Source: Candidatus Muproteobacteria bacterium RIFCSPHIGHO2_01_FULL_65_16
GTDB taxonomy: Bacteria; Pseudomonadota; Gammaproteobacteria; Acidiferrobacterales; Sulfurifustaceae
Assembly (NCBI GenBank): GCA_001785175.1
Contig: MFSY01000013.1
Span: 587 to 16,071, forward strand
Direction of reading: 5' to 3'
Length of the DNA stretch: 15,485 bases
Positions 1 through 15,410 of the stretch are shown here, one piece after another (within the stretch, counting starts at the first letter, position 1; every line of letters begins with the position of its first letter). The notes beneath the pieces are model-generated. The model saw only the letters and a list, made by a program, of their open reading frames with translations. It had not been told where the DNA came from and ran no database searches. The translations under genes were made by a program, and so were the position numbers.

Positions 1-652
1 GAAATGGATTAAGGTCGTCCGCGGGACCGGCCGCGACGGGCCACCACGAGCCGTTACAGTCAGGCAACGTGGCGCAGCTCAGGGCCGCGAAGTTGGCGCT
101 TACCAGTCCGCCGAGCGTGATCTGCGCGCCGAGCAAGGCGAGGCCGATGTACGCCGCGATTTTTAGGCCGCGCGGCGCCGCCGGCGCCGGGGCCGGCCTT
201 ATGTCCAGCCATAGCCACCAGAGCACGGCCAGCATGGCGAACCCGGTCAGGATGTTGGCGAGCGTTATTACCGGCAGGGTCAGGGTCGGGGTCCATCGGC
301 CCAGTATGGCAAGGAATGCCGTGAGCCCGAGCAGCACGAGCGAAAGCAGCCGGTGGCGCGCGGCGGACCGGCCGCGCCAGGAGAGAAATACGATGGCGAG
401 AATGACCATCCCCATGACGCCGCCCGCGAGCCGATGGGCCACCGCCTTCCATGAGCCCGCCGGCGCATCCCGGCCGCCGGGTTCAGTCACCCTGTCGGGC
501 CCGGTGATCCGGCCGTAACACGCCGGCCAATCGGCGCAACCCAGCCCCGCGTGCGACAGGCGCAGGGCGGAACTGAAAACAATCGCCCCCGCCATCAATG
601 CGACCGCCGTCGTCACCAGGAAAGTAAAGACGGGTGATGTCCGGGCGTTCAT
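1..652 (-). CDS. ctaA: Heme A synthase, CtaA/COX15 family (partial, 3' end outside window)
   Basis: Membrane enzyme that oxidises heme O to heme A for heme-copper oxidases. Translating the complement from the ATG at 652 gives 217 residues still open at the window edge; the family is usually about 330-370 aa. Visible hallmarks are an N-terminal membrane segment (about residues 8-30), the conserved GLGCADWPACYG stretch (36-47, with the Cys39/Cys45 pair), the heme-ligand motif AHRLAGG (His73), and a later loop SCATLPDCNGSWWP typical of the proteobacterial form. Several hydrophobic spans lie between these. No clear Shine-Dalgarno precedes the ATG, and the start lies 27 bases downstream of the lipoprotein stop, so the two may be co-transcribed. 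It matches the heme needs of the heme-copper enzyme encoded on the other strand. The family call is secure; the exact start is less so. Confidence 0.9.
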   Translation of the reverse strand, partial: MNARTSPVFTFLVTTAVALMAGAIVFSSALRLSHAGLGCADWPACYGRITGPDRVTEPGGRDAPAGSWKAVAHRLAGGVMGMVILAIVFLSWRGRSAARHRLLSLVLLGLTAFLAILGRWTPTLTLPVITLANILTGFAMLAVLWWLWLDIRPAPAPAAPRGLKIAAYIGLALLGAQITLGGLVSANFAALSCATLPDCNGSWWPVAAGPADDLNPF

Positions 653-679: not shown

Positions 680-1330
680 TTATTTTTTTATGTTCGCGGT
701 GCCGCGCACGAGGCGCACGTGCAGCGGCTCGATTTTTTGCGCGACGTAGTCGTAGCCGTAATCGAAGCGCCAGGTCCAGGCGCCGCTCTCGTGCGAGCCG
801 AAGGGCGTCTCCGCCCAGTAGCTGCCGGCCGGGGTGTTGGGGAAATATTTGATCTCGATCGTGGGCCCGGGATAGAAGATGCTGCCGTCAATGATCGTGG
901 CCACCTCCATGCGTTGCGGCAGGCGCCAGTCGCTGAAGCCGCACAGGCGCTTGGCGTTCACCGCGGACTTGTAGGACTCGGTGTCGCAGCGGCCGCTGGT
1001 GCAGGAGCCGCCGTCGCGCTTGCCCGCGTCGCCGCCGTTGGTGTTCTCATCCGGGTTGTACCAGGTGTAGGTACTTTTTTCGTACCGCAGGCCCGGCTTG
1101 GCGGTTTTGACTTCCCAGACCAGGGTGGTCTGGTTGTCGCGCACGCAGGCCCACGGCTGTTTCGCGTAATCGCCCGTACCTCTGTAGACGCTGCCATCCG
1201 CGTTGAGACGCGTGAAGTCGAACACCGGCGGCTTGGGTGAGTTGCAGCCGGCGAGCAGCAGACCGAGCAATGTCACGGCGGCGCCGGCCGGCTTCAAGCG
1301 GGCGCTGAATGTGCTGGAACGAATATTCAT
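680..1330 (-). CDS. DUF1566 / Lcl C-terminal domain lipoprotein
   Basis: Predicted 216-residue lipoprotein. The reading frame extends upstream to 1399, but the ATG at 1330 is preferred because it starts directly on a lipoprotein signal (Arg/Lys-containing N-region, hydrophobic core, lipobox LLAGC with Cys29). The mature part carries the DUF1566/Lcl signature: a polar segment with LVWEVKT, a WYNPDENTNGGDAG loop, the CGFSDWRLPQRME motif, YWAETPF, and a terminal HVRLVRG strand. Several cysteines could form disulfides in the periplasm. Proteins with this domain are often surface-exposed and of unknown function; no enzymatic role can be assigned. No strong ribosome site is visible, but a good minus-strand promoter lies at 1370-1399. 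The link to the respiratory genes around it is unclear. Confidence 0.85.
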   Translation of the reverse strand: MNIRSSTFSARLKPAGAAVTLLGLLLAGCNSPKPPVFDFTRLNADGSVYRGTGDYAKQPWACVRDNQTTLVWEVKTAKPGLRYEKSTYTWYNPDENTNGGDAGKRDGGSCTSGRCDTESYKSAVNAKRLCGFSDWRLPQRMEVATIIDGSIFYPGPTIEIKYFPNTPAGSYWAETPFGSHESGAWTWRFDYGYDYVAQKIEPLHVRLVRGTANIKK

Positions 1331-1369
1331 GGGAAAGTTTGTCTTTTGTGTGAGATTCGAAGGCGCGGC

Positions 1370-1399
1370 ATTATCACGGAAACACCGGGAGGTGTTCAA
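1370..1399 (-). promoter_or_regulatory. Sigma70-like promoter for the lipoprotein gene, with dyad in the spacer
   Basis: On the minus strand, TTGAAC (1399-1394) and GATAAT (1375-1370) are separated by 18 bases and point at the lipoprotein ATG at 1330. The spacer and -35 region contain a perfect 6-bp dyad, aacacc-ggga-ggtgtt (1381-1396), which could be an operator. This is seen by pattern only, with no experimental support. Confidence 0.42.
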
Positions 1400-2388: not shown

Positions 2389-2931
2389 ATGCCAACATCA
2401 TATACTCCCCCCTCAGAGCGCCTCTGGTGGAATGAGCCCATAGAGCGCACCGAGATCCTCTGGATCGTCATCGCGTTCGCATGGTGTCTGTTCATGTTCT
2501 ACTACATGATCGCCTGGCACTGGACGGGCAAGCAGAACCTGGCCAACGAGGCCTACAAGATCACCCCCGAGGCCTACGGCAAGAAGGTCCAGGCCATGGT
2601 CGAGCAATACACCGTGCGCAAGGAGACCGAGCAGAATATCCCGGTGGTCCGTCCGCCGGCGGGCAGCGACGTCTACCTGGCCGGAAGCCTGTGGCAGTGG
2701 CGCCCGCTGCTGGAGCTGGAGAAGGGCAAGTCGTACCGCCTGCACGTGTCGTCCCTCGACTGGATGCACGGGTTCTCGCTGCAACCGGAGAACATCAACC
2801 TCCAGGTGTTGCCCGGCTATGAAATGGTCATAACCGTCACTCCCAACAAGACCGGTACCAATACCGTCATGTGTAACGAGTACTGCGGTATCGGCCACCA
2901 CACCATGTTGGGCAAAATCTACGTCAAATAA
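2389..2931 (+). CDS. Heme-copper oxidase/reductase subunit II, ba3-type, with CuA site
   Basis: A 180-residue electron-entry subunit: one N-terminal transmembrane helix (about 22-44), then a periplasmic cupredoxin domain. All expected CuA ligands are visible: His127 in DWMHGFS, then Cys162, Glu164, Cys166, His170 and Met173 in the motif CNEYCGIGHHTM. The length and single helix fit the short B-type (ba3) subunit II rather than the two-helix A-type. It would accept electrons from a cytochrome c or cupredoxin and pass them to subunit I, which starts 20 bases downstream. AAGGAG (2373-2378) precedes the ATG. The intact CuA site matters because the partner subunit I has an unusual active site; CuA-containing NO reductases are also known, so the presence of CuA does not prove oxygen reduction. 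Confidence 0.92.
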   Translation: MPTSYTPPSERLWWNEPIERTEILWIVIAFAWCLFMFYYMIAWHWTGKQNLANEAYKITPEAYGKKVQAMVEQYTVRKETEQNIPVVRPPAGSDVYLAGSLWQWRPLLELEKGKSYRLHVSSLDWMHGFSLQPENINLQVLPGYEMVITVTPNKTGTNTVMCNEYCGIGHHTMLGKIYVK

Positions 2932-2951
2932 AGCAAAAAGCAGATAAGACC

Positions 2952-4655
2952 ATGACAATACTATCCGATGCTCAATATTTTCGTACCGACCCCGTGTCCG
3001 GCATGCGCTTCCACAAGCCGGCCGCGGCCCTGACGAAGGCGAACGCGGTAGCGGCGGTCGTCTTCCTGTTGATCGGCGGCTTCTTCGGCCTGCTGGTGGC
3101 GCTCACCCGCTGGCCGGCCGTACACCTGCTCCCGGCGGACCAGTTTTATCTGGCGCTGACGGCGCACGGCGTGGACGCGCTGCTGGTCTGGATCATCTTC
3201 TTCGAAGTCGCGGTGATGTATTTCTGTGCCTCGACCCTGCTCGGCAGCCGTATCGCGACGCCGAAGATGGGCTGGTTTGCGTTCTGGCTCATGATCATCG
3301 GCGCGGTGATGGCCAATGTGGTCGTGCTGCAGGGCAAGGCGACCGTGATGATGACCTCCTATCCGCCCATGACGGCGTCCCCGTGGTTCTATCTGGGGCT
3401 GATCATCTTCGCCGTGGGTGCGCTCATCGCGTGCTTCATCTTCATGGGCACGCTGGTGGTCGCCAAGGAAGAGAAGACCTATGAGGGCTCGATCCCGCTG
3501 GTGGTGTTCGGCGCGCTGACGGCCTGCGTCATCGCGATCTTCACCATCGTGTCGGGCGCCATCATCCTGTTGCCCACCTACCTGTGGTCTGTCGGCCTCA
3601 TCAGTCACATAGACCCCCTGATGTACCGCATCATGTGGTGGGCCATGGGCCACTCGTCGCAGCAGATCAACGTCGTGACCCACATCTCGCTCTGGTACTT
3701 CGTCGCCGCCCTGCTGTTCGGCGCCAAGCCGATGTCGGAGAAAGTGAGCCGCGTGGCGTTCCTGCTGTACATCCTGTTCCTGCAGTTGGGTTCGGTGCAC
3801 CACGAACTGGTTGACCCGGGTCTGAGTTCGGCGTGGAAGATCTTCAACACCAGCTACGCCATGTATCTGGCGGTGCTGGCGAGCATGATCCACGGCCTGA
3901 CCGTTCCGGGCTCGATCGAGGTGGCGCAGCGCCGCCAGGGTCTGAACAAGGGCCTGTTCGAGTGGTTCCGCAAGGCCCCCTGGGGCAACCCGGTGTTCTC
4001 CGGCACGATCCTTTCGTTGGTCCTGTTCGGTTTCATCGGCGGCGTCACCGGCGTGGTCATGAGCGTGGAGCAGATCAACCTGATCATTCACAACACGGTT
4101 TATCTGCCCGGGCACTTCCACGGCACCGTCGTCGGCGGCACCACGCTGGCCTTCATGGCGATCACCTACTGGCTGATCCCGACGCTGTTCCAGCGCGAGG
4201 TGATCATGAAGCCGCTGGCGGCGATCCAGCCGTACCTGTTCGGCGGCGGTCTCGCGGGTTTCGGTCTCGCCATGATGGGCGCCGGCACCCTGGGCGTGCC
4301 GCGCCGGCACTGGGATATGTCCTTCGCCGGCCAGCCCCTGGCCCATGACTGGCCCGGTCTGGCGTATCTGTTGATGACCATCACGGAAATCTCGGCGATG
4401 GTGATGGTGGTCGGCGGCGTGATCTATATCCTGGTCACCGTCGGTTCGATCCTGTTCGGCAAGAAGATCCCGGAAAACGCCAGGCCGTGGCCGCGCGTCC
4501 CGGATGCCGACACGGTCGGCGGGCACAAGGAGATCGGGCTCGGTGGTTTCGAGGCGCCCGGCACCTTCATCTTCGCCATGATATTCTTCGCGACCCTCGT
4601 TCTGTACTACTTCATCAACTGGAAGTATCTGGCGACCGTGTGGCCGCTGACATAA
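2952..4655 (+). CDS. B-family heme-copper oxidase subunit I with Gln at the tyrosine position (oxidase or NO reductase)
   Basis: A 567-residue integral membrane catalytic subunit with about 13 or more hydrophobic spans. Heme and CuB ligands are present: His72 (low-spin heme, LTAHGV), His234 (CuB), the His283-His284 pair (SVHHELVDPG), and His388 and His390 (PGHFHG). The overall pattern follows Thermus ba3 subunit I, including VDPG, PWGNPVF and NVPRR-like segments. However, where oxidases have the cross-linked tyrosine four residues after the first CuB histidine (HPxxY), this protein reads HSSQQ, so Gln238 replaces Tyr. That substitution occurs in heme-copper relatives thought to reduce NO (eNOR-type, from memory), which makes the substrate uncertain. 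Partners are the CuA subunit, the small helices upstream, and the ctaB and SCO maturation genes downstream. The Shine-Dalgarno is weak. The family is secure; the substrate is not. Confidence 0.9.
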   Translation: MTILSDAQYFRTDPVSGMRFHKPAAALTKANAVAAVVFLLIGGFFGLLVALTRWPAVHLLPADQFYLALTAHGVDALLVWIIFFEVAVMYFCASTLLGSRIATPKMGWFAFWLMIIGAVMANVVVLQGKATVMMTSYPPMTASPWFYLGLIIFAVGALIACFIFMGTLVVAKEEKTYEGSIPLVVFGALTACVIAIFTIVSGAIILLPTYLWSVGLISHIDPLMYRIMWWAMGHSSQQINVVTHISLWYFVAALLFGAKPMSEKVSRVAFLLYILFLQLGSVHHELVDPGLSSAWKIFNTSYAMYLAVLASMIHGLTVPGSIEVAQRRQGLNKGLFEWFRKAPWGNPVFSGTILSLVLFGFIGGVTGVVMSVEQINLIIHNTVYLPGHFHGTVVGGTTLAFMAITYWLIPTLFQREVIMKPLAAIQPYLFGGGLAGFGLAMMGAGTLGVPRRHWDMSFAGQPLAHDWPGLAYLLMTITEISAMVMVVGGVIYILVTVGSILFGKKIPENARPWPRVPDADTVGGHKEIGLGGFEAPGTFIFAMIFFATLVLYYFINWKYLATVWPLT

Positions 4656-4877: not shown

Positions 4878-5735
4878 ATGGTCGCGCAACTCGTTAATGT
4901 ATTTAAGCTGCGTATCGGCACGCTCATCGCCCTGGCGGCTCTCGGCGGCTTGGCCATCGCTCCGGGCCCGGCGTTGCCGGCCTGGAAAATCATGGTCCTG
5001 GCGGTGGCGGTGCTCATGGCCTCGGCCGCCGCCGGTGCGTTCAATCAATATCTGGAAACCGACATAGACGCGCGCATGGCGCGCACGCGCAAGCGGCCGT
5101 TCGTCACCGGGGCGTTCGCGCACAATCGTTACTGGCTGCTGGGGATCGGCGTGCTGCTGCTCGCGGCGGTGCTGCTGGCGGCGTTGGTGCTGAACGCCGC
5201 ATCGGCGCTGTACGTATTCCTCGGCGCGTTCACGTACGCCGTGGTGTACACCGTGTGGCTGAAGCGGCGCACGTGGATCAACATCATCGTCGGCGGGCTG
5301 GCGGGCAGTTTCGCCGTGCTGGCCGGGGCCGCGGCGGTGGATCCGGCGCTCGGGCCGCTGCCGGTGATCCTGGCGCTGGTGCTGTTCCTCTGGACGCCGT
5401 CGCATTTCTGGAGCCTGGCGATCGCGCTGCGCAAGGATTACGCCGCCGCCGGCGTGCCCATGCTGCCGGTGGTGAAGGGCGATCACGTCGCCGCCTGGGC
5501 GATTCTGGTCAACACGGTGCTGCTGGTCGCGGTCTCGCTGCTGCCGGTGTTCTACGGCGCGGGCTGGATATACTTCGCCGGCGCCCTCGCGGGTGGGGTG
5601 TATTTTCTGGCGCGCAACGTGCAGCTCGTGCGCCACACGACGACCCAGACCGCGATGACCAATTTCTTCGCCTCCCTGGTGCAGCTCAGCCTGCTGCTTG
5701 GGGCGGTGCTGCTGGAGGCGGGCCTGGCCGCGTGA
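4878..5735 (+). CDS. ctaB: Protoheme IX farnesyltransferase (heme O synthase)
   Basis: A 285-residue UbiA-family prenyltransferase that attaches farnesyl to heme B, giving heme O, the substrate of CtaA. Seven to nine hydrophobic spans are visible. Key motifs are present: the first Asp-rich site NQYLETDIDARMARTRKRP (about 56-74), the YTVWLKRRTWINIIVGG segment, and the second loop LWTPSHFWSLAIALRKDY with the following GVPMLPVVKG. Length is normal for the family. A GGAGG (4860-4864) lies 13 bases before the ATG, rather far, but no better start fits the family's N-terminus. It sits after two hairpins that follow the heme-copper genes and before a rho-independent terminator, so it may be transcribed at a different level from the structural subunits. 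Confidence 0.95.
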   Translation: MVAQLVNVFKLRIGTLIALAALGGLAIAPGPALPAWKIMVLAVAVLMASAAAGAFNQYLETDIDARMARTRKRPFVTGAFAHNRYWLLGIGVLLLAAVLLAALVLNAASALYVFLGAFTYAVVYTVWLKRRTWINIIVGGLAGSFAVLAGAAAVDPALGPLPVILALVLFLWTPSHFWSLAIALRKDYAAAGVPMLPVVKGDHVAAWAILVNTVLLVAVSLLPVFYGAGWIYFAGALAGGVYFLARNVQLVRHTTTQTAMTNFFASLVQLSLLLGAVLLEAGLAA

Positions 5736-5820: not shown

Positions 5821-5843
5821 GCGGCGTTTCCGCGCTTGACCAG

Positions 5844-5865
5844 AAAAGCCCGGAAGGGCTTTTTT
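5844..5865 (+). terminator. Rho-independent terminator
   Basis: AAAAGCCC (5844-5851), loop GGAA, GGGCTTTT (5856-5863), ending in a run of six T (5860-5865). This is a textbook intrinsic terminator, 108 bases after the ctaB stop and 21 bases before the SCO start. It may end ctaB transcription, or act as an attenuator if the -10 box at 5815 is active. Confidence 0.8.
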
Positions 5866-5886
5866 GGTTTCTGTGTAGAGTCGGTC

Positions 5887-6885
5887 ATGAAAGCAAAAGA
5901 CGACGGTGAATTCGGGACGGCGCGCGTTGCGCTTTACGCACCGGCGCGCGTTGCGCGCCCTGGGCATCCTGCGCCGCTGGCGTGCCTGCTCGCAGTCCTT
6001 GCCCTTATGACGAGTGCGCCGTCCCGGGCGCAGGACCATGCCGCAAATGCTCAAAGCGGCAAGGAGCGTGCGGCGCCGGCGCAAAAACATGTCGCTGCGC
6101 GCACGGAGGACCAGGCGCGCCGGCAGGTCTACAACCCCGCCCGCGGCTTTGACGAGACCGCCGCCATGAAGATCAGCCAGGGGGCCATCGGCCGCGCATT
6201 GGGCGACTACGTCCTGCGCGACCGGGCGGGGCGGGACGTGCGTCTGGCCGATTACCGCGGCAAGCCGCTGATCGTGAGCATGGTCTATACCAGTTGCTCG
6301 CACGTGTGTCCCGTGACGACGCAACACCTGAAGAAAGTGGTAAAAGTGGCGCAGGAGGCGCTCGAGGCCGACAGCTTCAACGTGATCACGATCGGTTTCG
6401 ACACCGCGCGCGATAATCCTCCGGCCATGGCCCATTTCGCGCGCGCGCAGGGCGTGGATCTGCCCGGCTGGGAATTTCTGAGCGCGGACGCCGCCACGAT
6501 CGAGCGCCTGAGCCGGGATCTCGGTTTTCTCTATTTCCCCTCGCCCAAGGGATTCGATCACCTGACGCAGGCCAGCCTGGTAGATCCGCAGGGCAAGGTC
6601 TATCTCCAGATCTACGGCGAGGATTTCAAGCTGCCGCTATTGACCGAGCCTTTGAAGGGGCTTGTCAACGGCGTCCAGTCCAGCTATCCGGGGCTCGAGG
6701 GCCTGAGCAATCGTATCCGCCTGTTCTGTACCGTCTACGACCCGGCGAACGAGCGCTACATGAAGGACTATTCATTTTTCGTCGGCCTGTTCGTCAGCGT
6801 CGCCTTCATCATCCTGATGACGACAATCATTATTCGCGAGGCGCGGCGCAGCCCGCGGCCGCGCGGCCGCGCCGGCCGGCAGTAG
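5887..6885 (+). CDS. SCO1/SenC-family copper chaperone with C-terminal membrane anchor
   Basis: A thioredoxin-fold copper protein that delivers copper to the CuA site of heme-copper enzymes. The ATG at 5887 gives 332 residues; an in-frame TTG at 5836 lies before and within the terminator hairpin region and is unlikely. A hydrophobic segment (about 29-46) ending near SAPSRAQ acts as signal peptide or anchor. The copper site is complete: Cys137 and Cys141 in TSCSHVCPVTT, and His225 in GFDHLTQ. Unlike short SCO proteins it has a C-terminal extension with a second membrane segment (about 296-317) and an Arg/Gly/Pro-rich tail. The neighbouring CuA subunit gene supports the role. The ribosome site is weak. 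Confidence 0.9.
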   Translation: MKAKDDGEFGTARVALYAPARVARPGHPAPLACLLAVLALMTSAPSRAQDHAANAQSGKERAAPAQKHVAARTEDQARRQVYNPARGFDETAAMKISQGAIGRALGDYVLRDRAGRDVRLADYRGKPLIVSMVYTSCSHVCPVTTQHLKKVVKVAQEALEADSFNVITIGFDTARDNPPAMAHFARAQGVDLPGWEFLSADAATIERLSRDLGFLYFPSPKGFDHLTQASLVDPQGKVYLQIYGEDFKLPLLTEPLKGLVNGVQSSYPGLEGLSNRIRLFCTVYDPANERYMKDYSFFVGLFVSVAFIILMTTIIIREARRSPRPRGRAGRQ

Positions 6886-6965: not shown

Positions 6966-8894
6966 GTGATCAAGCTGATACAACGCGCCGGGCAGTGGGT
7001 GTTGCTGCGTTTGGAGAACGGCGGCAACGCCCTGTTCGGCGAGGCGCAAAATCCCCTTTATTACCTCGGCGGCATCACCTTCATGCTGTATTGGGTGGTG
7101 GTGGGAAGCGGGTTTTTCATCTACGCCTTTTTCAAGACCGGGGTGGACGAGGCCTACAACTCGGTTGAATACATAACCCATACGCAGTGGTATCTCGGCG
7201 GCGTCATGCGCAGCCTGCACCGCTACGCCGCCGACGGCATGGTCATAACCATACTGCTGCATCTGACGCGCAATTTCATGTTCGACCGCTACCACGGCTT
7301 CCGCGCCATGTCCTGGATCACCGGCATGGTGTTGTTGTGGTTGACGTACATCTCCGGCGTCAACGGCTACTGGCTGGTGTGGGACAAGATGGCGCAGTTC
7401 GTGGCCGTGGCCACGGCCGAGTGGCTCGACTGGTTCCCGATCTTCAACGGCGTGCTGGTGCGCAATTTCATGTATCAGGGATCCGTCAACGACCGCTTCT
7501 TCTCGCTGCTGGCGTTCGCGCACATAGGCATTCCGCTGATCCTGCTGTTCTTCATCTGGATCCACACCCAGCGCGTGCCGCATGCCCGGATTTACCCGCC
7601 GCGCCAGACGGCGGTCGCGCTGCTGCTTTCCCTGCTGGCGCTGGCCCTGATCAAGCCCGCCGTCAGCCAGGGCCCCGCGGATCTCGGGGCCGCCCCCACT
7701 ACCCTGAACTTCGACTGGTTTTTCCTGGCGGTCTATCCGCTCATTTACAATTGGTCGCCGGGCAAGCTCTGGGCGCTTATCGGCGGCGTGACCCTTGCTG
7801 TTGTCGTGCAGCCGTGGCTGTCGCGGCCGAAGCGCCTGCCGGAGGGTGAGTTTCAGATCACCTCCAAGCCGTGCAACCACATCGTCACGGCCCGGCCCGG
7901 GGAGACCATATTGGACGCGGCCCTGCGTCAGGGGCTGATGCTGCCCTACTTATGCCGCGACGGCGCCTGCGGCACGTGCAAGGGCACCGTCCTGCAAGGC
8001 AGTGTGGATTACGGCACCTACCAGCAGAGCGCCCTGAGCGAAGCGGAGAAGCAGGCGGGCAAGGCGCTCTTCTGCTGCGCCAGGCCGCTTTCCGACGTAG
8101 ACATCGAATGCCACGAGGTCTATGCCCTGAAGAACGTGCCGGTCAAGCGGTATACATCCAGCGTGCAACGGATCGAAATGGTCGCCCCCGATGTCATGGT
8201 CGTGTCGCTCAAGCTTGCGGACGGCGAAGCGCTGTCCTTCCTGCCCGGCCAGCACATCAGCGTCCTGCTCGAAGACGGCAAGCGCCGGAGCTTTTCGATC
8301 GCCAATCCTCCGCACGTCAATGATCGTGTGGATCTGCATATCCGCAGGGTGGAAGGCGGACGCTTCACCGGCCACGTCTTTACAAAGATGAAGGCCGGCG
8401 ACGTCGTGCAGTTCGATGGTCCCCTGGGGTCGTTCTTCCTGCGCGAGGAGTCGCACAAGCCGATTATCCTCATGGCCGGCGGCACCGGCTTTTCTCCGAT
8501 CAAGAGCATTGTCGAACATGTTCTGCACACGGGCGGCAAACGGCGCATGCTGTTTTACTGGGGCGGCAGGGCGCGCAAGGATCTCTACATGATGGACCTG
8601 GCCCAGACCTGGCAGAGGGAGCACGAATTCATCACCTTTATCCCGGTGCTGTCGGAGGCCGCGCCCGCCGATAACTGGGACGGCAAAACCGGATTCGTGC
8701 ACGAGGCCGTGCTCAAGGACCACGAGACCCTCAAGGGCCATGAAGTCTACGCCTGCGGGCCGCCGCCCATGGTGGCGGCCGGACGCGAGACCTTTATTCA
8801 GCGCGGGTTGCCGGAGGCCGCCTACTTCGCGGACGCCTTCTTGCAGTGCTCGTACTCAACCGACGAAACATCCAAGGCGGTGACCCATGGCTAA
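6966..8894 (+). CDS. Cytochrome b fused to [2Fe-2S] ferredoxin and FAD/NAD(P) reductase
   Basis: A 642-residue fusion. Residues 1-290 are a bc1-like cytochrome b with four heme ligands in two pairs 14 apart (His85/His99, His186/His200), so two b hemes spanning the membrane. Residues about 300-385 are a plant-type [2Fe-2S] ferredoxin (Cys330, Cys335, Cys338, Cys370). Residues about 395-630 are a ferredoxin-NADP reductase-like module with FAD motif RSFS (441-444), nucleotide motif GGTGFSPI (505-512) and CGPPPM (598-602). The likely reaction is electron transfer between NAD(P)H and a quinone or partner enzyme through the b hemes; direction is unknown. The start is GTG at 6966, with GGAG (6955-6958) upstream. 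The Qo-type PEWY motif reads FDWF (249-252). It is the first gene of an operon and its stop overlaps the next start by 8 bases. Confidence 0.9.
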   Translation: MIKLIQRAGQWVLLRLENGGNALFGEAQNPLYYLGGITFMLYWVVVGSGFFIYAFFKTGVDEAYNSVEYITHTQWYLGGVMRSLHRYAADGMVITILLHLTRNFMFDRYHGFRAMSWITGMVLLWLTYISGVNGYWLVWDKMAQFVAVATAEWLDWFPIFNGVLVRNFMYQGSVNDRFFSLLAFAHIGIPLILLFFIWIHTQRVPHARIYPPRQTAVALLLSLLALALIKPAVSQGPADLGAAPTTLNFDWFFLAVYPLIYNWSPGKLWALIGGVTLAVVVQPWLSRPKRLPEGEFQITSKPCNHIVTARPGETILDAALRQGLMLPYLCRDGACGTCKGTVLQGSVDYGTYQQSALSEAEKQAGKALFCCARPLSDVDIECHEVYALKNVPVKRYTSSVQRIEMVAPDVMVVSLKLADGEALSFLPGQHISVLLEDGKRRSFSIANPPHVNDRVDLHIRRVEGGRFTGHVFTKMKAGDVVQFDGPLGSFFLREESHKPIILMAGGTGFSPIKSIVEHVLHTGGKRRMLFYWGGRARKDLYMMDLAQTWQREHEFITFIPVLSEAAPADNWDGKTGFVHEAVLKDHETLKGHEVYACGPPPMVAAGRETFIQRGLPEAAYFADAFLQCSYSTDETSKAVTHG

Positions 8895-9390
8895 GCTTTT
8901 ACGTTATCTGGGCCAGGCGATCTTCTATATCCTGTTCGTGAGTGTGATCGGGTATTTCTCGACCTACCCGGTCTATACCCATCTGCCGCCGGACCAGGGC
9001 CTGGTCAAGCTCTCCTTCATCCACACCGCGCAGCGCAAGGGGGCGTGCCGGGAGCGCACGGACGAGGAGCTGGCGAAGCTCGCGCCCAACATGCGCGTGC
9101 GCAAGGTCTGCCCGCGCGAGCGTTCCGATGTGGTGGTGGAGCTCGACGTGGACGGCAAGCCGTTGTATCACGTGGTGCTGCCGCCATCCGGCGTCACGCG
9201 CGACGGCTCCTCGGCGGTCTATCGGCGCTTCCAGCTGCCCGCCGGCCGCCATCATTTCACGGCGCGTCTGAAGGACTGGGAGTCGGCCGAGTTCAATTAC
9301 ACCGGCGCGGCCGACGTCACCCTCGCCCCCGGGCGCGTAATGGTGATTGACTTCAAGGCCGGGGCGGGCGGGTTTCTTTTCAAGAGCTAG
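8887..9390 (+). CDS. Membrane-anchored hypothetical protein in the cytochrome b / NOR-like cluster
   Basis: A 167-residue protein of no family I recognise. One N-terminal transmembrane helix (about 8-28) is followed by a soluble, probably periplasmic domain. That domain is rich in alternating hydrophobic/polar strands (VVVELDVDGKPLYHVVLPP, then FQLPAGRHHFTARLKD), which suggests a beta-sandwich. Two cysteines (Cys54, Cys75) could pair; no heme-binding CxxCH or CuA motif is present. The ATG overlaps the upstream stop by 8 bases, so translation is probably coupled to the cytochrome b fusion. The NOR-like catalytic gene starts 23 bases downstream. Position and topology make it a candidate accessory subunit of that enzyme, taking the place usually held by NorC or a CuA subunit, yet it has no visible redox centre. 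Confidence 0.8.
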   Translation: MAKLLRYLGQAIFYILFVSVIGYFSTYPVYTHLPPDQGLVKLSFIHTAQRKGACRERTDEELAKLAPNMRVRKVCPRERSDVVVELDVDGKPLYHVVLPPSGVTRDGSSAVYRRFQLPAGRHHFTARLKDWESAEFNYTGAADVTLAPGRVMVIDFKAGAGGFLFKS

Positions 9391-9413
9391 TCATCGAGCA
9401 AGCGGCGCGCTAC

Positions 9414-10826
9414 ATGAATAGAACGTCCTCCAAGGCCGCCGCTGCCGGCGCCGCCCATCCGCGCGCCGGCGCGTTCATTCCGCCGTCACCGCCGGCGGCC
9501 AGTCTGCGGCTGGCCTCCGGCTGGCTCTGGCTGGGCATGGCGTCGCTGGTGGGCGCCGGCCTGTTCGCGGTGCTGTTGGTGCTGTCCCGCACGCCGTACG
9601 TGCAGGACATCTTCCCCTGGGTTGATTTCTTCCACTCGGCGCTGGTGGTGCACGTGGATTTATCGGTGCTCTTTTGGTTCCTGGCCTTCGCCGGCGTGAT
9701 CTGGAGCTTCAACGCCTCCGCGCGTTGGATCTATCTGGGCTGGCCGGCCTTGGCGCTGGCCACCGCCGGCGCGCTGATCGTCGCCGCCGCGCCGTTCGTG
9801 GATTCCGGCAAGCCGATCATGAGCAACTATATCCCGGTGTTGCAGGGGCCGGTGTTCCTCTCCGGGCTGGTGCTGTTCGCCGGCGGCATCGCGTTTCTGG
9901 TGCTGCGGAGCTTGGTTGCGGCCCTGCCGGCTGGGCGGGGCACGACGGGCGCGGGCGCGTTGCGCTTCGGCATCGTCGCCTCGCTGGTGGCGGCGGCCTT
10001 CGCCTTGATCGCTTATGCCTGGTCCTACGCGCAGGTCCCGGATGAATTGACCGGCACGCCGTACTTCGAGCTGTTGTTCTGGGGCGGCGGCCACGTGATG
10101 CAGTTCAGCTACACCCTGTTGATGTTGACGGCCTGGCTCTGGCTCGCCTCCGCCTCCGCCTCCGGCATGCGGCTCAGCGTAAGCCCGAGGCTGGCGACGC
10201 TGCTGTTAGCGCTCGGCCTGCTCCCGGTCTTCCTCACGCCGTTCATTTATCTGGCGCATGACATTATTTCAAGCAGGCATGTGGAGCAGTTCACCTTGCT
10301 GATGAAGGTCGGCGGCAGCCTGGCGGCCGCGCCTCTGGGCCTGGCCGTCGCCTACGGCCTGCTGCGTGGCAGGAGGGCGGAGCCGCCTTTGCAGCCGCTG
10401 CGCGCGGCGCTGATTTCCTCGCTGATTTTATTTGCCGTCGGCGGCGGGATCAGCCTCATGATCCAGGGCAGCAACACCATCATCACCGCCCACTACCACG
10501 GCACCGGCGGCGCCGTGAGCCTGGCCTTCATGGGATTGACCTATTATCTTCTGCCGGTGCTTGGTTATCGCGCGGCCGACCTGAAATGGGCGCGCATTCA
10601 GCCCTATGTCTACGGCGCCGGGCAACTGTTGCATATCATCGGCCTGCTCTGGTCCGGCGGCTATGGGGTGCAGCGCAAGGTCGCCGGCGCCGCCCAGGAG
10701 CTGCACACCATCGGTCAGAAGGCCGGCATGGGGCTGATGGGCCTGGGCGGACTCATCGCCGTCATCGGCGGACTGATGTTCCTGGTGGTGGTGTTCCGCG
10801 CCATGCGCCGCCCGGCCGGGCGCTGA
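9414..10826 (+). CDS. Divergent heme-copper catalytic subunit, NO-reductase-like (gNOR-like), with His-to-Asp at CuB
   Basis: A 470-residue membrane protein with about 12 hydrophobic spans, shorter than the subunit I at 2952. Heme ligands are retained: His80 (low-spin), His360 (high-spin) and His362 (AHYHGTGG). The first metal ligand is His227 (GGGHVMQF), with no tyrosine at +4 (Phe231). The normal His-His pair reads His282-Asp283 (YLAHDIISS), so one metal ligand is Asp. Automated annotation would probably call it a cbb3-type subunit I, but the Tyr loss and Asp ligand fit the unusual NO-reductase lineages (gNOR, from memory) better. No CuA or cytochrome c partner is encoded beside it; instead two cytochromes b and a small anchored protein flank it, so it may take electrons from quinol or directly from b hemes. 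No clear Shine-Dalgarno is seen before the ATG. Confidence 0.85.
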   Translation: MNRTSSKAAAAGAAHPRAGAFIPPSPPAASLRLASGWLWLGMASLVGAGLFAVLLVLSRTPYVQDIFPWVDFFHSALVVHVDLSVLFWFLAFAGVIWSFNASARWIYLGWPALALATAGALIVAAAPFVDSGKPIMSNYIPVLQGPVFLSGLVLFAGGIAFLVLRSLVAALPAGRGTTGAGALRFGIVASLVAAAFALIAYAWSYAQVPDELTGTPYFELLFWGGGHVMQFSYTLLMLTAWLWLASASASGMRLSVSPRLATLLLALGLLPVFLTPFIYLAHDIISSRHVEQFTLLMKVGGSLAAAPLGLAVAYGLLRGRRAEPPLQPLRAALISSLILFAVGGGISLMIQGSNTIITAHYHGTGGAVSLAFMGLTYYLLPVLGYRAADLKWARIQPYVYGAGQLLHIIGLLWSGGYGVQRKVAGAAQELHTIGQKAGMGLMGLGGLIAVIGGLMFLVVVFRAMRRPAGR

Positions 10827-10868
10827 AGCAGGCTGGACCACGGTCGTGACGGACGCGATCATGCTCAG

Positions 10869-12431
10869 ATGATCAGGCGTTTTCAGCTGGCCGGACAGCG
10901 CGCATGGTTGCGCATGGAGGGCGCGCTCAGCGCCGTGTTCGGACCGGCGCTGAATCCCTTCTATTTCCTCGGCGGCATCGCGTATTTTCTGCTGTGGGTG
11001 CTGGTCGCCAGCGGCTTCTACGTTTACTTTTTTTTCGACACCGGCGTAGTTCTGGGCTATCAGTCGCTCGAAGATCTCACGCGCAAGCAGCCGTATCTCG
11101 GCGGCGTCCTGCGCAGCCTGCACCACTACGCCGCCGACGGCATGGTCCTGGCCATGACCCTGCACCTGCTGCGCGAGTTCTTCATGGACCGCTACCGCAA
11201 TTTCCGCTGGTTCTCCTGGGTCACCGGCGTGCCGTTGCTGTGGCTGGTCTATGCCTCCGGCATCGGCGGCTACTGGCAGGTGTGGGACCGCCTGGCGCAG
11301 TTCATCGCCATCGGCACCGCCGAATGGTTCGACTACTTCCCGATCTTCGGCGAGCCTCTGGTGCGCAATTTCCTCGAGGACGGCGGGGTGAGCGACCGCT
11401 TCTTCTCCCTGCTGGCGTTCGCGCACATCGGCATTCCGTTGCTGCTTATGGTGTTCCTCTGGGTGCACACGCAACGCATCACCCGCGCCGTGGCCGCCCC
11501 GCCGGCGCCCGTGGCGCTGGGCATATTGCTGGCACTGGTGGCGCTTTCGCTGATAAAGCCGATCCTGAGCCACGCCGCGGCCGATCTGGGCGCGGTACCG
11601 AACAATCTCAAATTCGACTGGTTTTACCTGGCGGTCTATCCCCTGCTGTATATCTGGTCGCCGGGGGCGGTCTGGGCGCTGACCGGCGGCTTTACCCTGC
11701 TGCTCTTTCTGCTGCCGTGGCTGCCGCCGCGGATGCACCAGGAGCCGATAGTGGAAGTCCATCTGGACAATTGTAACGGCTGCGGCAACTGTGTCGCCGA
11801 TTGTCCCTACGCTGCTCTTAGCCTGGAGCCGCGCACGGACGGCAGGCGGTTCGTGCACGAGGCGGTACTGCGACCCGACCTGTGCGCGAGCTGCGGCGTG
11901 TGTGTCGGCTCGTGCCCGTACGCCATGCCGTTTCGCAGCGTGGGCGAGCTGGTGAGCGGGGTTGATCTACCCGACGTTCCGGTGCGCGCCCTGCGCGCGA
12001 CGACCGACAAGGCCGTCGCCGCCCTTGCGGGGGAGGTGCGCGTCATGGTCTTCGGGTGCGATCACGCCCCCAAGATCGTAAAGGCGCCGGGCGTGGCGTA
12101 TGTCGGGTTGCGCTGCATCGGCATGCTGCCGCCGTCGTTCATTGACTACGCCCTGCGCGGCAGCGCGGTGGACGGCGTCTTCATCATCGGCTGCGCGGAT
12201 TGCCGCTATCGCCGCGGCGATCAGTGGCTCAAGCAGCGTCTGGCGGGGGAGCGCGATCCACGGCTGCGGGGTCGGGTGTCGCGCGAGCGCGTGCACCATT
12301 GTTCGGTCACCGATATTCCCGGCGGCCGCGTTACGGCGCACCGTGAATTCGCGGAGTTCCGCGAGCACCTCCGGCGCCTGCCGCGGCGTCGCGTCGGATC
12401 CGAAACCGGCTCCGCGACGCCGCGCGGCTAG
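10869..12431 (+). CDS. Cytochrome b fused to two [4Fe-4S] clusters and an MvhD/FrhD-like domain
   Basis: A 520-residue fusion. Residues 1-290 are a bc1-like cytochrome b with heme ligands His85/His99 and His186/His200, colinear with the paralogue at 6966. Residues about 295-352 are a bacterial ferredoxin domain with two [4Fe-4S] motifs (Cys302-305-308-312 and Cys339-342-345-349). Residues about 390-480 resemble the hydrogenase delta subunit MvhD/FrhD, which normally carries electrons to heterodisulfide reductase; four cysteines remain (Cys397, Cys416, Cys442, Cys445) in FGCDHA, LRCIGM and GCADCRYR. The tail is Arg-rich. It probably links a soluble low-potential donor, such as ferredoxin or an Hdr-type protein, to the membrane. 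The ATG at 10869 aligns with the paralogue's first residues; the ribosome site is weak. Its TAG overlaps the stop of the convergent gene. Confidence 0.9.
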   Translation: MIRRFQLAGQRAWLRMEGALSAVFGPALNPFYFLGGIAYFLLWVLVASGFYVYFFFDTGVVLGYQSLEDLTRKQPYLGGVLRSLHHYAADGMVLAMTLHLLREFFMDRYRNFRWFSWVTGVPLLWLVYASGIGGYWQVWDRLAQFIAIGTAEWFDYFPIFGEPLVRNFLEDGGVSDRFFSLLAFAHIGIPLLLMVFLWVHTQRITRAVAAPPAPVALGILLALVALSLIKPILSHAAADLGAVPNNLKFDWFYLAVYPLLYIWSPGAVWALTGGFTLLLFLLPWLPPRMHQEPIVEVHLDNCNGCGNCVADCPYAALSLEPRTDGRRFVHEAVLRPDLCASCGVCVGSCPYAMPFRSVGELVSGVDLPDVPVRALRATTDKAVAALAGEVRVMVFGCDHAPKIVKAPGVAYVGLRCIGMLPPSFIDYALRGSAVDGVFIIGCADCRYRRGDQWLKQRLAGERDPRLRGRVSRERVHHCSVTDIPGGRVTAHREFAEFREHLRRLPRRRVGSETGSATPRG

Positions 12432-12661: not shown

Positions 12662-12933
12662 GATCCCCCCTTTATCATTTCGCGCCCGTGCCGGCGCGCT
12701 GTGGATGGAGCGACGTAATAATATACGATTCCCCCTCCAACGGGATAGGTGCTCTATCCCTCCTGACCTCTCAGATCATGCCGCGCGCCGGCGATATACT
12801 TGTACATATCGCCTCCGGTCGCGCTGGTTAATCTAACTCCGGAACGTCGTGCCGCGGGCGGACGATCGTATGCATTCTGAAAAAGTCCTGGATGGGTTTT
12901 TTCAGCAATCTACTAGATTCGAGGAGACGCGTT
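12662..12933. promoter_or_regulatory. Divergent control region between the small membrane gene and dsrA, with two perfect dyads
   Basis: 272 bases without a gene. Dyad 1 is GGGATAG-N5-CTATCCC (12742-12760). Dyad 2 is GGCGATAT-N8-ATATCGCC (12790-12813). Both are exact and have operator-like spacing. No single strong -35/-10 pair for dsrA could be fixed by eye. In Allochromatium vinosum the dsr operon is sulfur-regulated and DsrC has been reported to bind upstream of dsrA, so a regulator site here is plausible. Confidence 0.5.
12877..12917. repeat. Degenerate copy of the palindromic hairpin, next to dsrA
   Basis: CTGAAAAA (12877-12884) pairs with TTTTTTCAG (12897-12905), and the right half TTTTCAGCAATCTACTAGAT matches the reverse complement of 1680-1700 at about 18 of 21 positions. 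The left arm has lost most of its pairing. It lies directly before the dsrA ribosome site, so it may have been recruited as part of the leader. Confidence 0.5.
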
Positions 12934-14160
12934 GTGACGAAGAAAATGCACGCCACCCCCATGCTGGATCAGCTCGAAAGCGGTCCCTGGCCCAGCTTCG
13001 TGAAAGGCCTCAAGCGCCTGGCCGCCGACAAGGACATGATGGTGGACCTGCTCGGGCAGCTCGAGTTCTCCTACAAGACTCGCACCGGCTATTGGAAGGG
13101 CGGCACCGCGAGCGTCATCGGCTACGGCGGCGGCGTGATCCCGCGCTTCTCCGAGATCGCCGACAAGTTTCCCAAGTCCGCGGAGTTTCACACGCTGCGG
13201 ATCATGCCGGCCCCGGGGATGCATTACACGACCGACATCCTGCGCAAGTTCTGCGACATCTGGGAGCAACACGGCTCCGGCCTGATCGCGCTGCACGGCC
13301 AGAGCGGCGACATCATGCTCCAGGGCTGCACCACGGAAAACATCCAGCCCGCCTTCGACGCCGTGAACGAGCTCGGCTTCGACATGGGCGGCGCGGGCCC
13401 CTCGGTGCGCACCTCCATGTCCTGCGTCGGGCACGCGCGCTGCGAGCATTCGTGCTACGACGAAGGGCGGGCGCATCGCACGGTCATGAACAACTTCACC
13501 GACGAGCTGCATCGCCCGGCGCTGCCGTACAAATTCAAGTTCAAGTTCTCCGGCTGCGCGAACGACTGCATGAATTCGATCCAGCGCTCCGACATGGCCG
13601 TCATCGGCACCTGGCGCGACGACATCCAGGTGCAGCAGGACGAGGTGAAGCAGTTCGTCAAGGCCAAGGGGCGCGACTACGTGATTGACAACGTCGTGAC
13701 GCGTTGCCCGACGCGCTGCATCAAGCTCAACGGGGACGACACGCTCACCATAGACAACCGCAACTGCGTGCGCTGCATGCACTGCATCAACGTCATGACC
13801 AAGGCCCTGGCGCCGGGCAAGGACCGCGGCGTGACGGTCCTCGTCGGCGGCAAGCGCACCCTGAAGATCGGCGACCTGCTGGGCACGGTGATCATACCGT
13901 TCATGAAGCTCGAGACCGACGACGACCGCGAAAAGCTCGTGGAGCTGGCCAAGCGCATCATTGATTTCTGGGCCGAGAACGGCCTGGAACACGAGCGCTG
14001 CGGCGAGATGATCGAGCGCATCGGGCTCGCCAACTTCCTCGAAGGCCTCGGCCTCGAGGCCGACCCCGCCATGCTGGCGCATCCGCGCACCAACTCCTAC
14101 GTCCGCACCGACGGCTGGGAGGCGGAGGTCGAGCGGCTGAAGCAGGCCAGGATTGGATAA
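12934..14160 (+). CDS. dsrA: Dissimilatory sulfite reductase alpha subunit, DsrA (probably oxidative type)
   Basis: A 408-residue subunit of the siroheme enzyme that in sulfur oxidisers runs in reverse, taking stored sulfur carried by DsrC to sulfite in the cytoplasm. The start is GTG at 12934, because GAGGAG (12921-12926) sits 7 bases upstream and the product then begins close to the known HATPMLDQLESGPWPSFV N-terminus; the frame extends back to 12892 inside a repeat. Siroheme/[4Fe-4S] ligands are Cys164 and Cys170 (CVGHARC), then Cys208 and Cys212 (SGCANDC). A ferredoxin domain follows with Cys258, Cys262 and the cluster CVRCMHC (278-284). Length matches A. vinosum DsrA (about 417). Oxidative direction is inferred from the neighbouring aerobic and respiratory genes, not proven by sequence. 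Confidence 0.95.
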   Translation: MTKKMHATPMLDQLESGPWPSFVKGLKRLAADKDMMVDLLGQLEFSYKTRTGYWKGGTASVIGYGGGVIPRFSEIADKFPKSAEFHTLRIMPAPGMHYTTDILRKFCDIWEQHGSGLIALHGQSGDIMLQGCTTENIQPAFDAVNELGFDMGGAGPSVRTSMSCVGHARCEHSCYDEGRAHRTVMNNFTDELHRPALPYKFKFKFSGCANDCMNSIQRSDMAVIGTWRDDIQVQQDEVKQFVKAKGRDYVIDNVVTRCPTRCIKLNGDDTLTIDNRNCVRCMHCINVMTKALAPGKDRGVTVLVGGKRTLKIGDLLGTVIIPFMKLETDDDREKLVELAKRIIDFWAENGLEHERCGEMIERIGLANFLEGLGLEADPAMLAHPRTNSYVRTDGWEAEVERLKQARIG

Positions 14161-14169
14161 TAATTTTTT

Positions 14170-14311
14170 GACGCAAAGGCGCAAAGGGGACAAAGGGTAC
14201 AAAAGATGAGACGCCGTCTCAGAAACCCGGCACCCCGATGCCATTTTGGGACAGCCTCGATGGATGCTCAACTTTTTCTTGCCGTCCTTTGCGTCTTCGC
14301 GCCTTTGCGTC
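14170..14311. repeat. Inverted-repeat element with CGCAAAG-type arms between dsrA and dsrB
   Basis: The left arm (14170-14196) contains ACGCAAAGGCGCAAAGG. The right arm (14286-14311) contains its reverse complement GCGCCTTTGCGTC plus a variant unit. The interior of about 90 bases contains a small dyad (GAGACGCCGTCTC, 14208-14220) and no gene. It belongs to the same style of element as 1451-1579. It separates two genes that are normally adjacent and whose products assemble together. Confidence 0.65.
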
Positions 14312-14336
14312 GGAAATTCATATAGAGGAGATACCG

Positions 14337-15410
14337 ATGTCCACACAACCGCGTATGCCCATCGAGTCCGGCGTGCCGGACCATTTCCAGTACCTGCACC
14401 CGGTGCTCAAGAAGAACTACGGGCAGTGGGCCTGGCACGAGCGCCCGCGCCCGGGCGTGTTGCACCATGTCGCGCACAACGGCGACCAGGTATGGACCGT
14501 GCGCGCCGGCACGCCGCGCCAGTTGGACGTGCACACGATCCGCAAGCTGTGCGACATCGCCGACAAATACGCCGAGGGCCATGTGCGCTTCACCATCCGC
14601 TCCAACATCGAGTTCATGGTGGGCGACGCAAAGAAGGTCAAGCCGCTGATTGACAAGCTGCAACAGGAAGGTTTCCCCGTCGGCGGCACCGGCAACTCGG
14701 TCTCGATGATCGCGCACACCCAGGGCTGGCTGCACTGCGACATCCCGGCCTCCGACGCCTCGGGCGTGGTCAAATCGCTGATGGACGAGCTGTACCAGGA
14801 ATTCGTCAACGAGGACATGCCGAACCGCGTGCGGATCTCGACCTCGTGTTGCCAGATCAACTGCGGCGGCCAGGCGGACATCGCCATCAACATCCAGCAC
14901 ACCAAGCCGCCGCGGATCAATCACGATCTCGTCGCCAACATTTGCGAGCGCCCGTCGGTGGTGGCGCGCTGCCCGGTGGCGGCGATCCGGCCGGCGCTGG
15001 TGAACGGCAAGCCCTCGCTCGAAATAGACGAAAAGAAATGCATCTGCTGCGGCGCGTGCTATCCGCCGTGCCCGCCGATGCAGATCAACGATCCGGAACA
15101 TTCGAAGATCGCGATCTGGGTCGGCGGCAAGAATTCCAACGCCCGCAGCAAGCCCACCCTGCACAAGCTCGTGGCCGCCGGCATCCCGAACAACCCGCCA
15201 CGCTGGCCGGAGGCGGCGGCGATCGTGAAGAAGATCCTGCGCGTCTACAAAGAGGACGCCAAGGACTGGGAGCGCATGGCCGACTGGATCGAGCGCATCG
15301 GCTGGCCGCGGTTCTTCGAGCTCACCGAGCTGCCGTTCACGCGCTACCACGTGGACAACTGGCGCTGGGCGCGCCAGGGCCTGAACGCCTCGACGCATAT
15401 CCGTTTTTAG
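14337..15410 (+). CDS. dsrB: Dissimilatory sulfite reductase beta subunit, DsrB (probably oxidative type)
   Basis: A 357-residue partner of DsrA in the alpha2beta2 siroheme enzyme. The ATG at 14337 is chosen because GAGGAG (14325-14330) precedes it and the length agrees with A. vinosum DsrB (about 356); the frame is open back to 14238 but that part is repeat-derived. Siroheme/[4Fe-4S] ligands are Cys134 and the TSCCQINCGG motif (Cys171, Cys172, Cys176), with the same 37- and 5-residue spacings as known DsrB. The ferredoxin domain has Cys212 and CICCGACYPPC (235-245). dsrEFH, dsrC and dsrMKJOP, usual downstream partners, lie outside the window if present. Confidence 0.95.
   Translation: MSTQPRMPIESGVPDHFQYLHPVLKKNYGQWAWHERPRPGVLHHVAHNGDQVWTVRAGTPRQLDVHTIRKLCDIADKYAEGHVRFTIRSNIEFMVGDAKKVKPLIDKLQQEGFPVGGTGNSVSMIAHTQGWLHCDIPASDASGVVKSLMDELYQEFVNEDMPNRVRISTSCCQINCGGQADIAINIQHTKPPRINHDLVANICERPSVVARCPVAAIRPALVNGKPSLEIDEKKCICCGACYPPCPPMQINDPEHSKIAIWVGGKNSNARSKPTLHKLVAAGIPNNPPRWPEAAAIVKKILRVYKEDAKDWERMADWIERIGWPRFFELTELPFTRYHVDNWRWARQGLNASTHIRF

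Follow-up and report, generated by a model that had tools for sequence, protein, structure and literature searches.

Cytochrome b hybrids with flavin and iron-sulfur arms as candidate electron-transfer partners of an eNOR-type nitric oxide reductase in Candidatus Muproteobacteria

Results

The stretch of DNA analysed here (the window, 15,485 nucleotides; positions 587 to 16,071 of MFSY01000013.1, our contig C13) comes from Candidatus Muproteobacteria bacterium RIFCSPHIGHO2_01_FULL_65_16, whose genome assembly of 1.7 Mb is 79% complete. On its forward strand lie the genes of a predicted nitric oxide (NO) reductase of the eNOR type and, downstream of them, four genes spaced by -8 (an overlap), 23 and 42 nt. 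The first (6966..8894, GTG start) encodes a cytochrome b6-type membrane part joined to a [2Fe-2S]-FAD-NAD(P) reductase arm; the second (8887..9390) encodes a small anchored protein, sml; the third (9414..10826) encodes a heme-copper paralogue of eNOR subunit I; and the fourth (10869..12431) encodes another cytochrome b6-type membrane part, followed by two [4Fe-4S] clusters and an FlpD/MvhD [2Fe-2S] domain. A sequence-only reading of this DNA had described four consecutive, tightly spaced genes with two fusions, and the open frames at 6966-8894, 8887-9390, 9414-10826 and 10869-12431 bore out that description. Each domain of the first fusion (Cytochrome_B, Fer2, FAD_binding_6 and NAD_binding_1) and of the second (Cytochrome_B, [4Fe-4S] domains and FlpD) scored above the Pfam cut-off in at least one model. 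The anchored protein (167 aa), left without a family name in that reading, matched no Pfam or NCBIfam model at 1e-3. The unit had been thought to start at 6966; the gene set extends upstream, through the genes for SCO, CtaB, subunit I and a CuA-type subunit, from 2389.

Subunit I of the upstream pair (2952..4655) is a B-family heme-copper protein (COX1, E 1.2e-69) that was aligned to ba3 chains, and its closest solved structures were 7deg and ba3-type (B-family) oxidases. In helix VI, GHSSQQ aligned with GHPIVY of ba3, with Gln at the position of the cross-linked Tyr (H+4). Residues H72, H234, Q238, H283, H284, H388 and H390 were invariant in 21 of 21 hand-picked rows; the HH and HFH ligands are retained, as expected for the heme and Cu_B sites of the B family. 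In the published table, Gln marks eNOR and Asp marks gNOR (PMC8756737), and Gln in place of the cross-linked Tyr served as our criterion for eNOR. Because Gln stands at the ba3 Tyr position, the protein was assigned as eNOR subunit I. Directly upstream, where the cupredoxin-type partner of eNOR is expected, lies the gene for a membrane-anchored CuA-type (cupredoxin) subunit II (2389..2931), with the motif CNEYCGIGHHTM and an upstream His; its COX2 match (PF00116) reached 21.9 bits against a cut-off of 22 (E 1.8e-4). These signatures show the predicted catalytic pair to be the CuA-type subunit and the Gln-type heme-copper subunit at 2389-4655. The sequence-only reading had looked for the NO reductase within 6966-12431, but the Gln signature sits in the upstream subunit, outside these coordinates. 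In its Gln signature, its B-family kinship and the cupredoxin-type subunit II directly upstream, the pair agrees with eNOR as tabulated in PMC8756737. That account, where it describes eNOR, gives two subunits, whereas here iron-sulfur (FeS)- or flavin-armed cytochromes b and the small anchored protein are found as well. eNOR has been biochemically characterised, as stated in PMC11388526.

The distribution of these genes was surveyed in 274 genomes drawn evenly from the window's class; 235 were at least 90% complete and at most 5% contaminated, and incomplete ones were kept (genomes and loci are cited below by G and L numbers). With eNOR called at E up to 1e-100, 23 of the 274 genomes possessed it. 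The cytochrome b-[4Fe-4S]2-FlpD protein was present in 24 genomes: 22 of the 23 with eNOR and 2 of the 251 without (Fisher 3.9e-29; this and the Fisher values below are overstated because related genomes, including three same-genus pairs among the 23, are not independent). In the two genomes with the cytochrome b gene but without eNOR, the gene lies beside SCO or CtaB/SCO genes, which themselves come to 0.7 kb or less from a contig end; in the sole eNOR genome without the hybrid, G318, eNOR lies at a contig end. The cytochrome b-FeS gene and then the small-protein gene followed eNOR downstream in 15 of 22 class loci besides the window. In L127 cytochrome b runs off the contig, and in L117, L120, L126 and L128 the contig ends before that point. 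In L131 and L132, from one genus, neither gene is directly downstream of eNOR; the cluster is split, with cytochrome b and the small protein 13-16 kb away on the same contig. Rarity of the adjacency in other genomes, which the sequence-only reading had named as the outcome that would speak against it, was thus not found: the genes are adjacent in 15 of the 22 loci, five stop at a contig end, and two have the genes at 13-16 kb. Many of 80 compared loci, a set biased by having been chosen with the 9414 protein, also have the order CuA subunit-subunit I-(CtaB)-SCO-cytochrome b-small protein. The proposed four-gene order and co-occurrence hold in part: they recur in other genomes, but the exact set with both cytochromes b is restricted. 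As judged from gene content, the cytochrome b-FeS-FlpD protein and the small protein are shown to be near-constant candidate partners of eNOR in the class sample.

Structure modelling of the small protein gave a single helix at the N-terminus and a domain rich in beta strands (pLDDT 94), and two Cys, C54 and C75, were invariant in 30 rows. It occurred in 25 genomes of the class sample, including 24 of 24 with cytochrome b-FeS-FlpD (Fisher 1.4e-33); in the 25th, G154, the gene is near a contig end. In G212, cytochrome b-FeS-FlpD and the small protein form one frame of 697 residues (L135:4842-6932), and in G322 cytochrome b and the small protein also share one frame, which is cut by the contig. 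The natural fusion in G212 supports contact between cytochrome b and the small protein.

The membrane core of the hybrids was compared in an alignment of 110 rows, in which the window's two copies are counted twice. The heme ligands His 85, 99, 186 and 200 were conserved at 98%, a b6-like GYxxxWD stretch at 99%, and, in a DWF loop, D250 and W251 at 99% and Phe at 95%. This loop stands at what we take to be the position of the PEWY motif of bc1/b6f. The cytochromes b therefore have a diheme core and a Qo site, the latter as a variant in which Asp takes the place of the PEWY Glu. Hydropathy indicated five clear helices and, with the His-bearing helix B, six in total; the positive loops are on the side of the arm, as is the N-terminus, and the arms were placed in the cytoplasm on account of these loops. 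Compared with cytochrome b6f/bc1, the hybrids share the four heme His, the GYxxxWD stretch and the loop at the PEWY place; they differ in having DWF for PEWY, about six helices and a C-terminal cytoplasmic arm, and no Rieske motif and no cytochrome f/c1 were seen.

The flavin arm (6966-8894) is similar to oxygenase reductases and NqrF. All 12 cluster Cys of the FeS/FlpD arm were conserved at 100% in the 71 rows with this arm (the window copy counted twice), among them the FlpD [2Fe-2S] residues C397, C416, C442 and C445, as expected for the Hdr/MvhD type. Positions 573-749 of the NCBIfam HdrA2 model matched the arm at 1.8e-10, below the model cut-off, and the MvhD chain 9sw2_D matched it at E 1e-4. 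The arm resembles the C-terminus of HdrA2 and MvhD in its ferredoxin-then-FlpD order and in its cysteines; it differs in being fused to a membrane cytochrome b, with no HdrA flavoprotein encoded in the window. A third arm type, a diflavin arm of flavodoxin and FAD_binding_1, is carried by a cytochrome b of G211 (L119:2-2224, minus strand). Three arm types on one membrane core, together with the intact diheme core, the Qo-like loop and the regular pairing with eNOR, would suit a Rieske-less surrogate of bc1 that hands electrons from quinol to eNOR alone, while the arms sense redox state or gate the complex and carry little flux. Complete conservation of the 12 Fe-S cysteines argues instead for real electron transfer through the arm, and we regard such a surrogate as quite unlikely.

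Arm types were assigned by a script from cysteine patterns, with one truncated row scored as 'other'; L106 was typed as flavin-armed though its FeS/FlpD arm is evident, and it is absent from the tree rows. Once L106 was dropped, 37 loci, counting the window, had flavin-armed copies, and the others are mostly labelled Gallionella, Gallionellaceae, Gallionellales, Ferrigenium or Nitrosomonadales. G005, of the window's family, has a flavin-armed copy (L133:5586-7583) about 1.9 Mb, in contig coordinates, from its own eNOR cluster. In a tree of 94 membrane parts, midpoint-rooted for drawing only and without outgroup, the 29 flavin-armed (FNR-arm) rows formed one group (support 98/90), nested in a group of 38 rows (100/97) with eight FeS-armed rows, the window's included, and one untyped row. 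We infer that the flavin-armed form arose from the FeS-armed form by duplication and arm exchange; the direction is read from the narrower distribution of the flavin arm. Both cytochromes b of the window grouped with Nitrosomonadales copies, and the same-family relative G005 (L115) fell elsewhere. The probable course is a duplication, the gain of a new arm and a later acquisition of the pair by the window's lineage, an order deduced from a tree without outgroup.

This grouping suggests block transfer, and the genes could be neighbours merely through shared regulation or as one transferred island, with no physical or electron-transfer link among their products. However, the co-occurrence persists where eNOR and cytochrome b are apart on the same contig (G212, G322) and where they are on different contigs of draft genomes (G175, G266, G273), for which contigs do not give the true distance. 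The fusion of cytochrome b with the small protein in G212 also speaks against an island without functional link, which we consider very unlikely.

Cytochrome d1 domains were found in 53 of the 274 genomes: 19 of the 23 with eNOR and 34 of the 251 others (Fisher 6.8e-12), an indirect indication that the reductase acts on NO. The cytochrome d1 model also matches heme d1 proteins other than nitrite reductase; NirF and NirN, we assume, are further members of this family. Because the family takes in such proteins, cytochrome d1 marks heme d1 loci and not nirS alone. The domain lies within 20 kb of eNOR (1.6 to 18.2 kb) in at least 8 of the 19 genomes; in G301, one compared d1 match among the matches listed is 2.6 Mb from eNOR. 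In L131, a run of genes that encodes a cytochrome d1 protein and NirJ (the latter above its cut-off) is oriented divergently from eNOR, and in L139 a hemerythrin gene and then a gene with cytochrome c and d1 domains come after the cytochrome b-small protein pair. By gene position, the cytochrome b-FeS-FlpD and small proteins are thus shown to be encoded near predicted cytochrome d1 (nirS-type) genes in several genomes.

The hemerythrin-domain protein that adjoins the pair in L139 is encoded at 6338-6763 of that locus. A cluster of similar-looking proteins occurs in L100, L114, L121 and L123.

The heme-copper protein at 9414-10826 had been regarded as the terminal reductase, a gNOR-like protein with an Asp metal ligand. 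It has the fold of a heme-copper subunit I: its model (pLDDT 88, pTM 0.91) matched 7deg_A in Foldseek (E 2e-7, TMq 0.65), the profile match to eNOR subunit I had an E value of 4e-29, and H80, H227, Q230, H360 and H362 are invariant in proteins of this type. The Asp, D283, is present in the window's protein, but over 68 hand-picked rows its column is variable (D 27, E 11, G 8, A 7, P 5, N 3, others 7), as is the neighbouring His column (Y 25, H 20, F 18, others 5). The D283 column thus does not mark a conserved metal site. Of the three Cu_B His, H227 is invariant and the helix-VII pair is not. The Asp that Table A4 of PMC8756737 lists as 'active-site residue' of gNOR, read here as the H+4 position, was found in none of the 68 rows (F 64, I 2, Y 1, L 1). 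What the protein shares with gNOR is a heme-copper protein with the Asp flagged earlier; Phe at the gNOR-marking position and the loss of Cu_B ligands set it apart, by the published criterion rather than by comparison with gNOR sequences.

The distribution of the 9414-type protein points the same way. It is present in 18 of the 23 eNOR genomes and in 12 of the 251 without eNOR; five eNOR genomes are without it, one of which (G318) has eNOR at a contig end. In L061, L069, L089, L096 and L103 its gene is found with other oxidase genes, and in L061, L089, L146 and L148 it lies beside aa3 oxidase or CtaB genes. We consider it highly improbable that this protein acts at the centre of the complex as a gNOR-like catalyst of NO reduction with Asp as a Cu_B ligand. 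From its residues and gene context it is a heme-bearing, probably non-catalytic relative of eNOR within a denitrification context, and it may serve in NO binding, assembly or extra electron transfer.

Among other loci with the 9414-type gene, L061 has a gene for an Rrf2-family regulator 3' of it. In L019/L026 (G034) the gene is broken into three parts, one of which contains a stop, and seems to have decayed or to be misassembled. In L094, on a contig labelled Gemmatimonadales and possibly mis-binned, a small-protein gene is near it.

Between eNOR and the first hybrid lie a CtaB/CyoE-like gene of the UbiA family (4878..5735; PF01040, E 1.6e-51), a probable heme O synthase whose subfamily name comes from position and similarity rather than a specific model, and a gene for an SCO1/SenC copper-site assembly protein (5836..6885; PF02630, E 4.7e-16) with an uncertain TTG start. 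A CtaA/COX15 heme A synthase gene is cut by the window end (2..652, minus strand; PF02628, E 5.9e-28), and its protein cluster recurs near this gene set in 15 of 29 compared loci, the window counted. From their annotations, CtaB, SCO and the nearby CtaA look like eNOR assembly genes. An Lcl_C-domain protein (Pfam) is encoded at 680-1399 (minus strand); such a protein was found near the clusters in 5 of the 29 loci, and one is encoded at L138:4666-5430. Downstream of the last cytochrome b, after a gap of 460 nt, lie dsrA (12892-14160) and dsrB (14238-15410). In five genomes of the same family (L004, L005, L006, L007, L010), dsrA is closely 3' of the 9414-type gene; in the window the second cytochrome b stands between them. 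This points to a fixed gene neighbourhood more than to a functional link.

Discussion

We propose, with a probability of roughly 0.42, that the four genes form the electron-transfer part of an eNOR-type NO reductase locus, in which quinol oxidation splits electrons between eNOR and a cytoplasmic arm. The two cytochromes b would form a b6f-like dimer, here a heterodimer, docked beside eNOR and kept in place by the small protein on the outer face. Quinol would be oxidised at the Qo-like site formed by the GYxxxWD helix and the DWF loop. The first electron would pass through the CuA domain of eNOR to NO, replacing the missing Rieske branch; the second would pass via the hemes b to the cytoplasmic arm and on to NAD(P)+ (flavin arm) or a low-potential acceptor (FeS/FlpD arm). 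In this way NO reduction would pay for reductant, a benefit to iron and sulfur oxidisers, whose donors deliver their electrons at high potential. In its most specific form, a Rieske-less quinol-bifurcating complex in which the CuA of the NO reductase takes the high-potential electron and the heterodimer delivers the low-potential one to both NAD(P)+ and an FeS/FlpD-linked acceptor, the proposal is unlikely.

Two cytochromes b coupled to one terminal reductase had been postulated before. Gene content and the presence of an NO-type reductase agree with that idea, but the reductase would be eNOR and not the 9414 protein. The earlier model, once eNOR is substituted as its terminal enzyme, runs in the opposite direction: NAD(P)H through the flavin arm, and ferredoxin or another low-potential donor through the FeS/FlpD arm, would feed the hemes b and from there the quinone pool or eNOR, for NO detoxification. 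The likeness of the flavin arm to NAD(P)H-fed reductases, the regular pairing with eNOR and the lack of a Rieske motif favour this direction, yet the conserved Qo-like DWF and GYxxxWD residues are hard to explain in a pure dehydrogenase. Moreover, NADH obtained by reverse electron transport is costly, and its use on NO would seem wasteful. PMC10734462 describes genes for such transport in Gallionellaceae. On balance, NAD(P)H and ferredoxin as donors are somewhat unlikely.

The quinol-oxidising direction, from quinol to NAD(P)+, is slightly more likely. We prefer it because the Qo-like residues are kept and because flavin arms occur mainly in Gallionellaceae-type genomes, which belong to iron oxidisers; such organisms have no cheap source of NADH. 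A further reason is that complexes of similar build from anammox bacteria have been proposed to work in this direction. These are Rieske/cytochrome b complexes with an NAD(P) oxidoreductase (Kuste4569-4574 and Kustd1480-1485), presented as bifurcators in the part of PMC12954380 that treats them. Like the hybrids, they combine a cytochrome b of the b6 type with an NAD(P) reductase in the cytoplasm, and for both a quinol bifurcation powered by a reaction of higher potential (in one of the anammox cases, nitrite reduction) is proposed. They differ in that neither Rieske nor multiheme cytochrome c is encoded among the window genes (this locus only), that the arm is fused here and that the sink would be eNOR.

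Several observations weigh against quinol oxidation split between eNOR and an arm. The main weakness is the missing Rieske protein: across 133 loci, which overlap in part, open reading frames of at least 60 aa showed no Rieske motif, and the scheme thus lacks the classical bifurcation partner. Direct transfer from Qo to CuA is a conjecture for which we know of no precedent. The Asp in the DWF loop replaces the catalytic Glu of PEWY. The strict CuA motif, C-x3-C-x3-H-x2-M, was present in 34 of 54 related subunit II rows, the window's among them, and missing in 20; of 12 inspected among these 20, 11 are Gallionellaceae-type rows (two Ferrigenium loci included) that retain Cys, Cys, His and Met but space them with additional residues, and in one (L025) the motif is disrupted. 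For the FeS/FlpD arm, no HdrA-like flavoprotein lies in the window, which leaves its acceptor without a candidate there. The FNR arm was found in none of the 22 other class eNOR loci (five of which end early), L119 having its diflavin-armed second cytochrome b nearby; the FeS/FlpD arm was found in the 15 other class loci in which the cluster is unsplit and the sequence extends far enough. The absence of the FNR arm from these loci and the remote copy in G005 imply that eNOR does not need the flavin arm. As for the NO source, cytochrome d1 was not found in 4 of the 23 eNOR genomes (G000, G166, G175, G282), the window's, at 79% completeness, among them, and nirK was found in none of the 23 compared with 16 of the 251 others, which is no association. 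Finally, eNOR has been described as quinol-dependent, in which case entry of electrons at CuA would be unnecessary (PMC13274419, in its statement on the electron donor).

Earlier work already covers eNOR, the Gln that marks it and its occurrence in Gallionellaceae. Four of six Gallionellaceae genomes with narGH encode eNOR according to PMC10734462, which does not mention cytochrome b partners in the passages on these genomes. PMC8756737 tabulates a protein from Chloroflexi in which cytochrome b6, ferredoxin-like and FlpD domains are combined, so the fusion itself is already in databases. For the FeS- and flavin-armed cytochromes b as partners of eNOR we found no account in the literature, though the primary eNOR publication may already show them. 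'Ca. Ferrigenium straubiae' is described, where PMC12622760 deals with its denitrification genes, as without a canonical nor gene and as leaving NO removal to the community. The whole cluster with the eNOR Gln is present in L043, labelled 'Ca. Ferrigenium straubiae' isolate KS03, and in loci of F. altingense and F. bremense too.

The L043 cluster bears on how 'Ca. Ferrigenium straubiae' removes NO. More generally, eNOR gains two further near-constant components with a testable role in electron transfer, and the redox arms of the cytochromes b suggest that eNOR may exchange electrons with carriers inside the cell. If quinol electrons do flow through the hybrids to NAD(P)+, denitrification would be a direct source of reductant, which would bear on CO2 fixation by iron and sulfur oxidisers living on high-potential donors.

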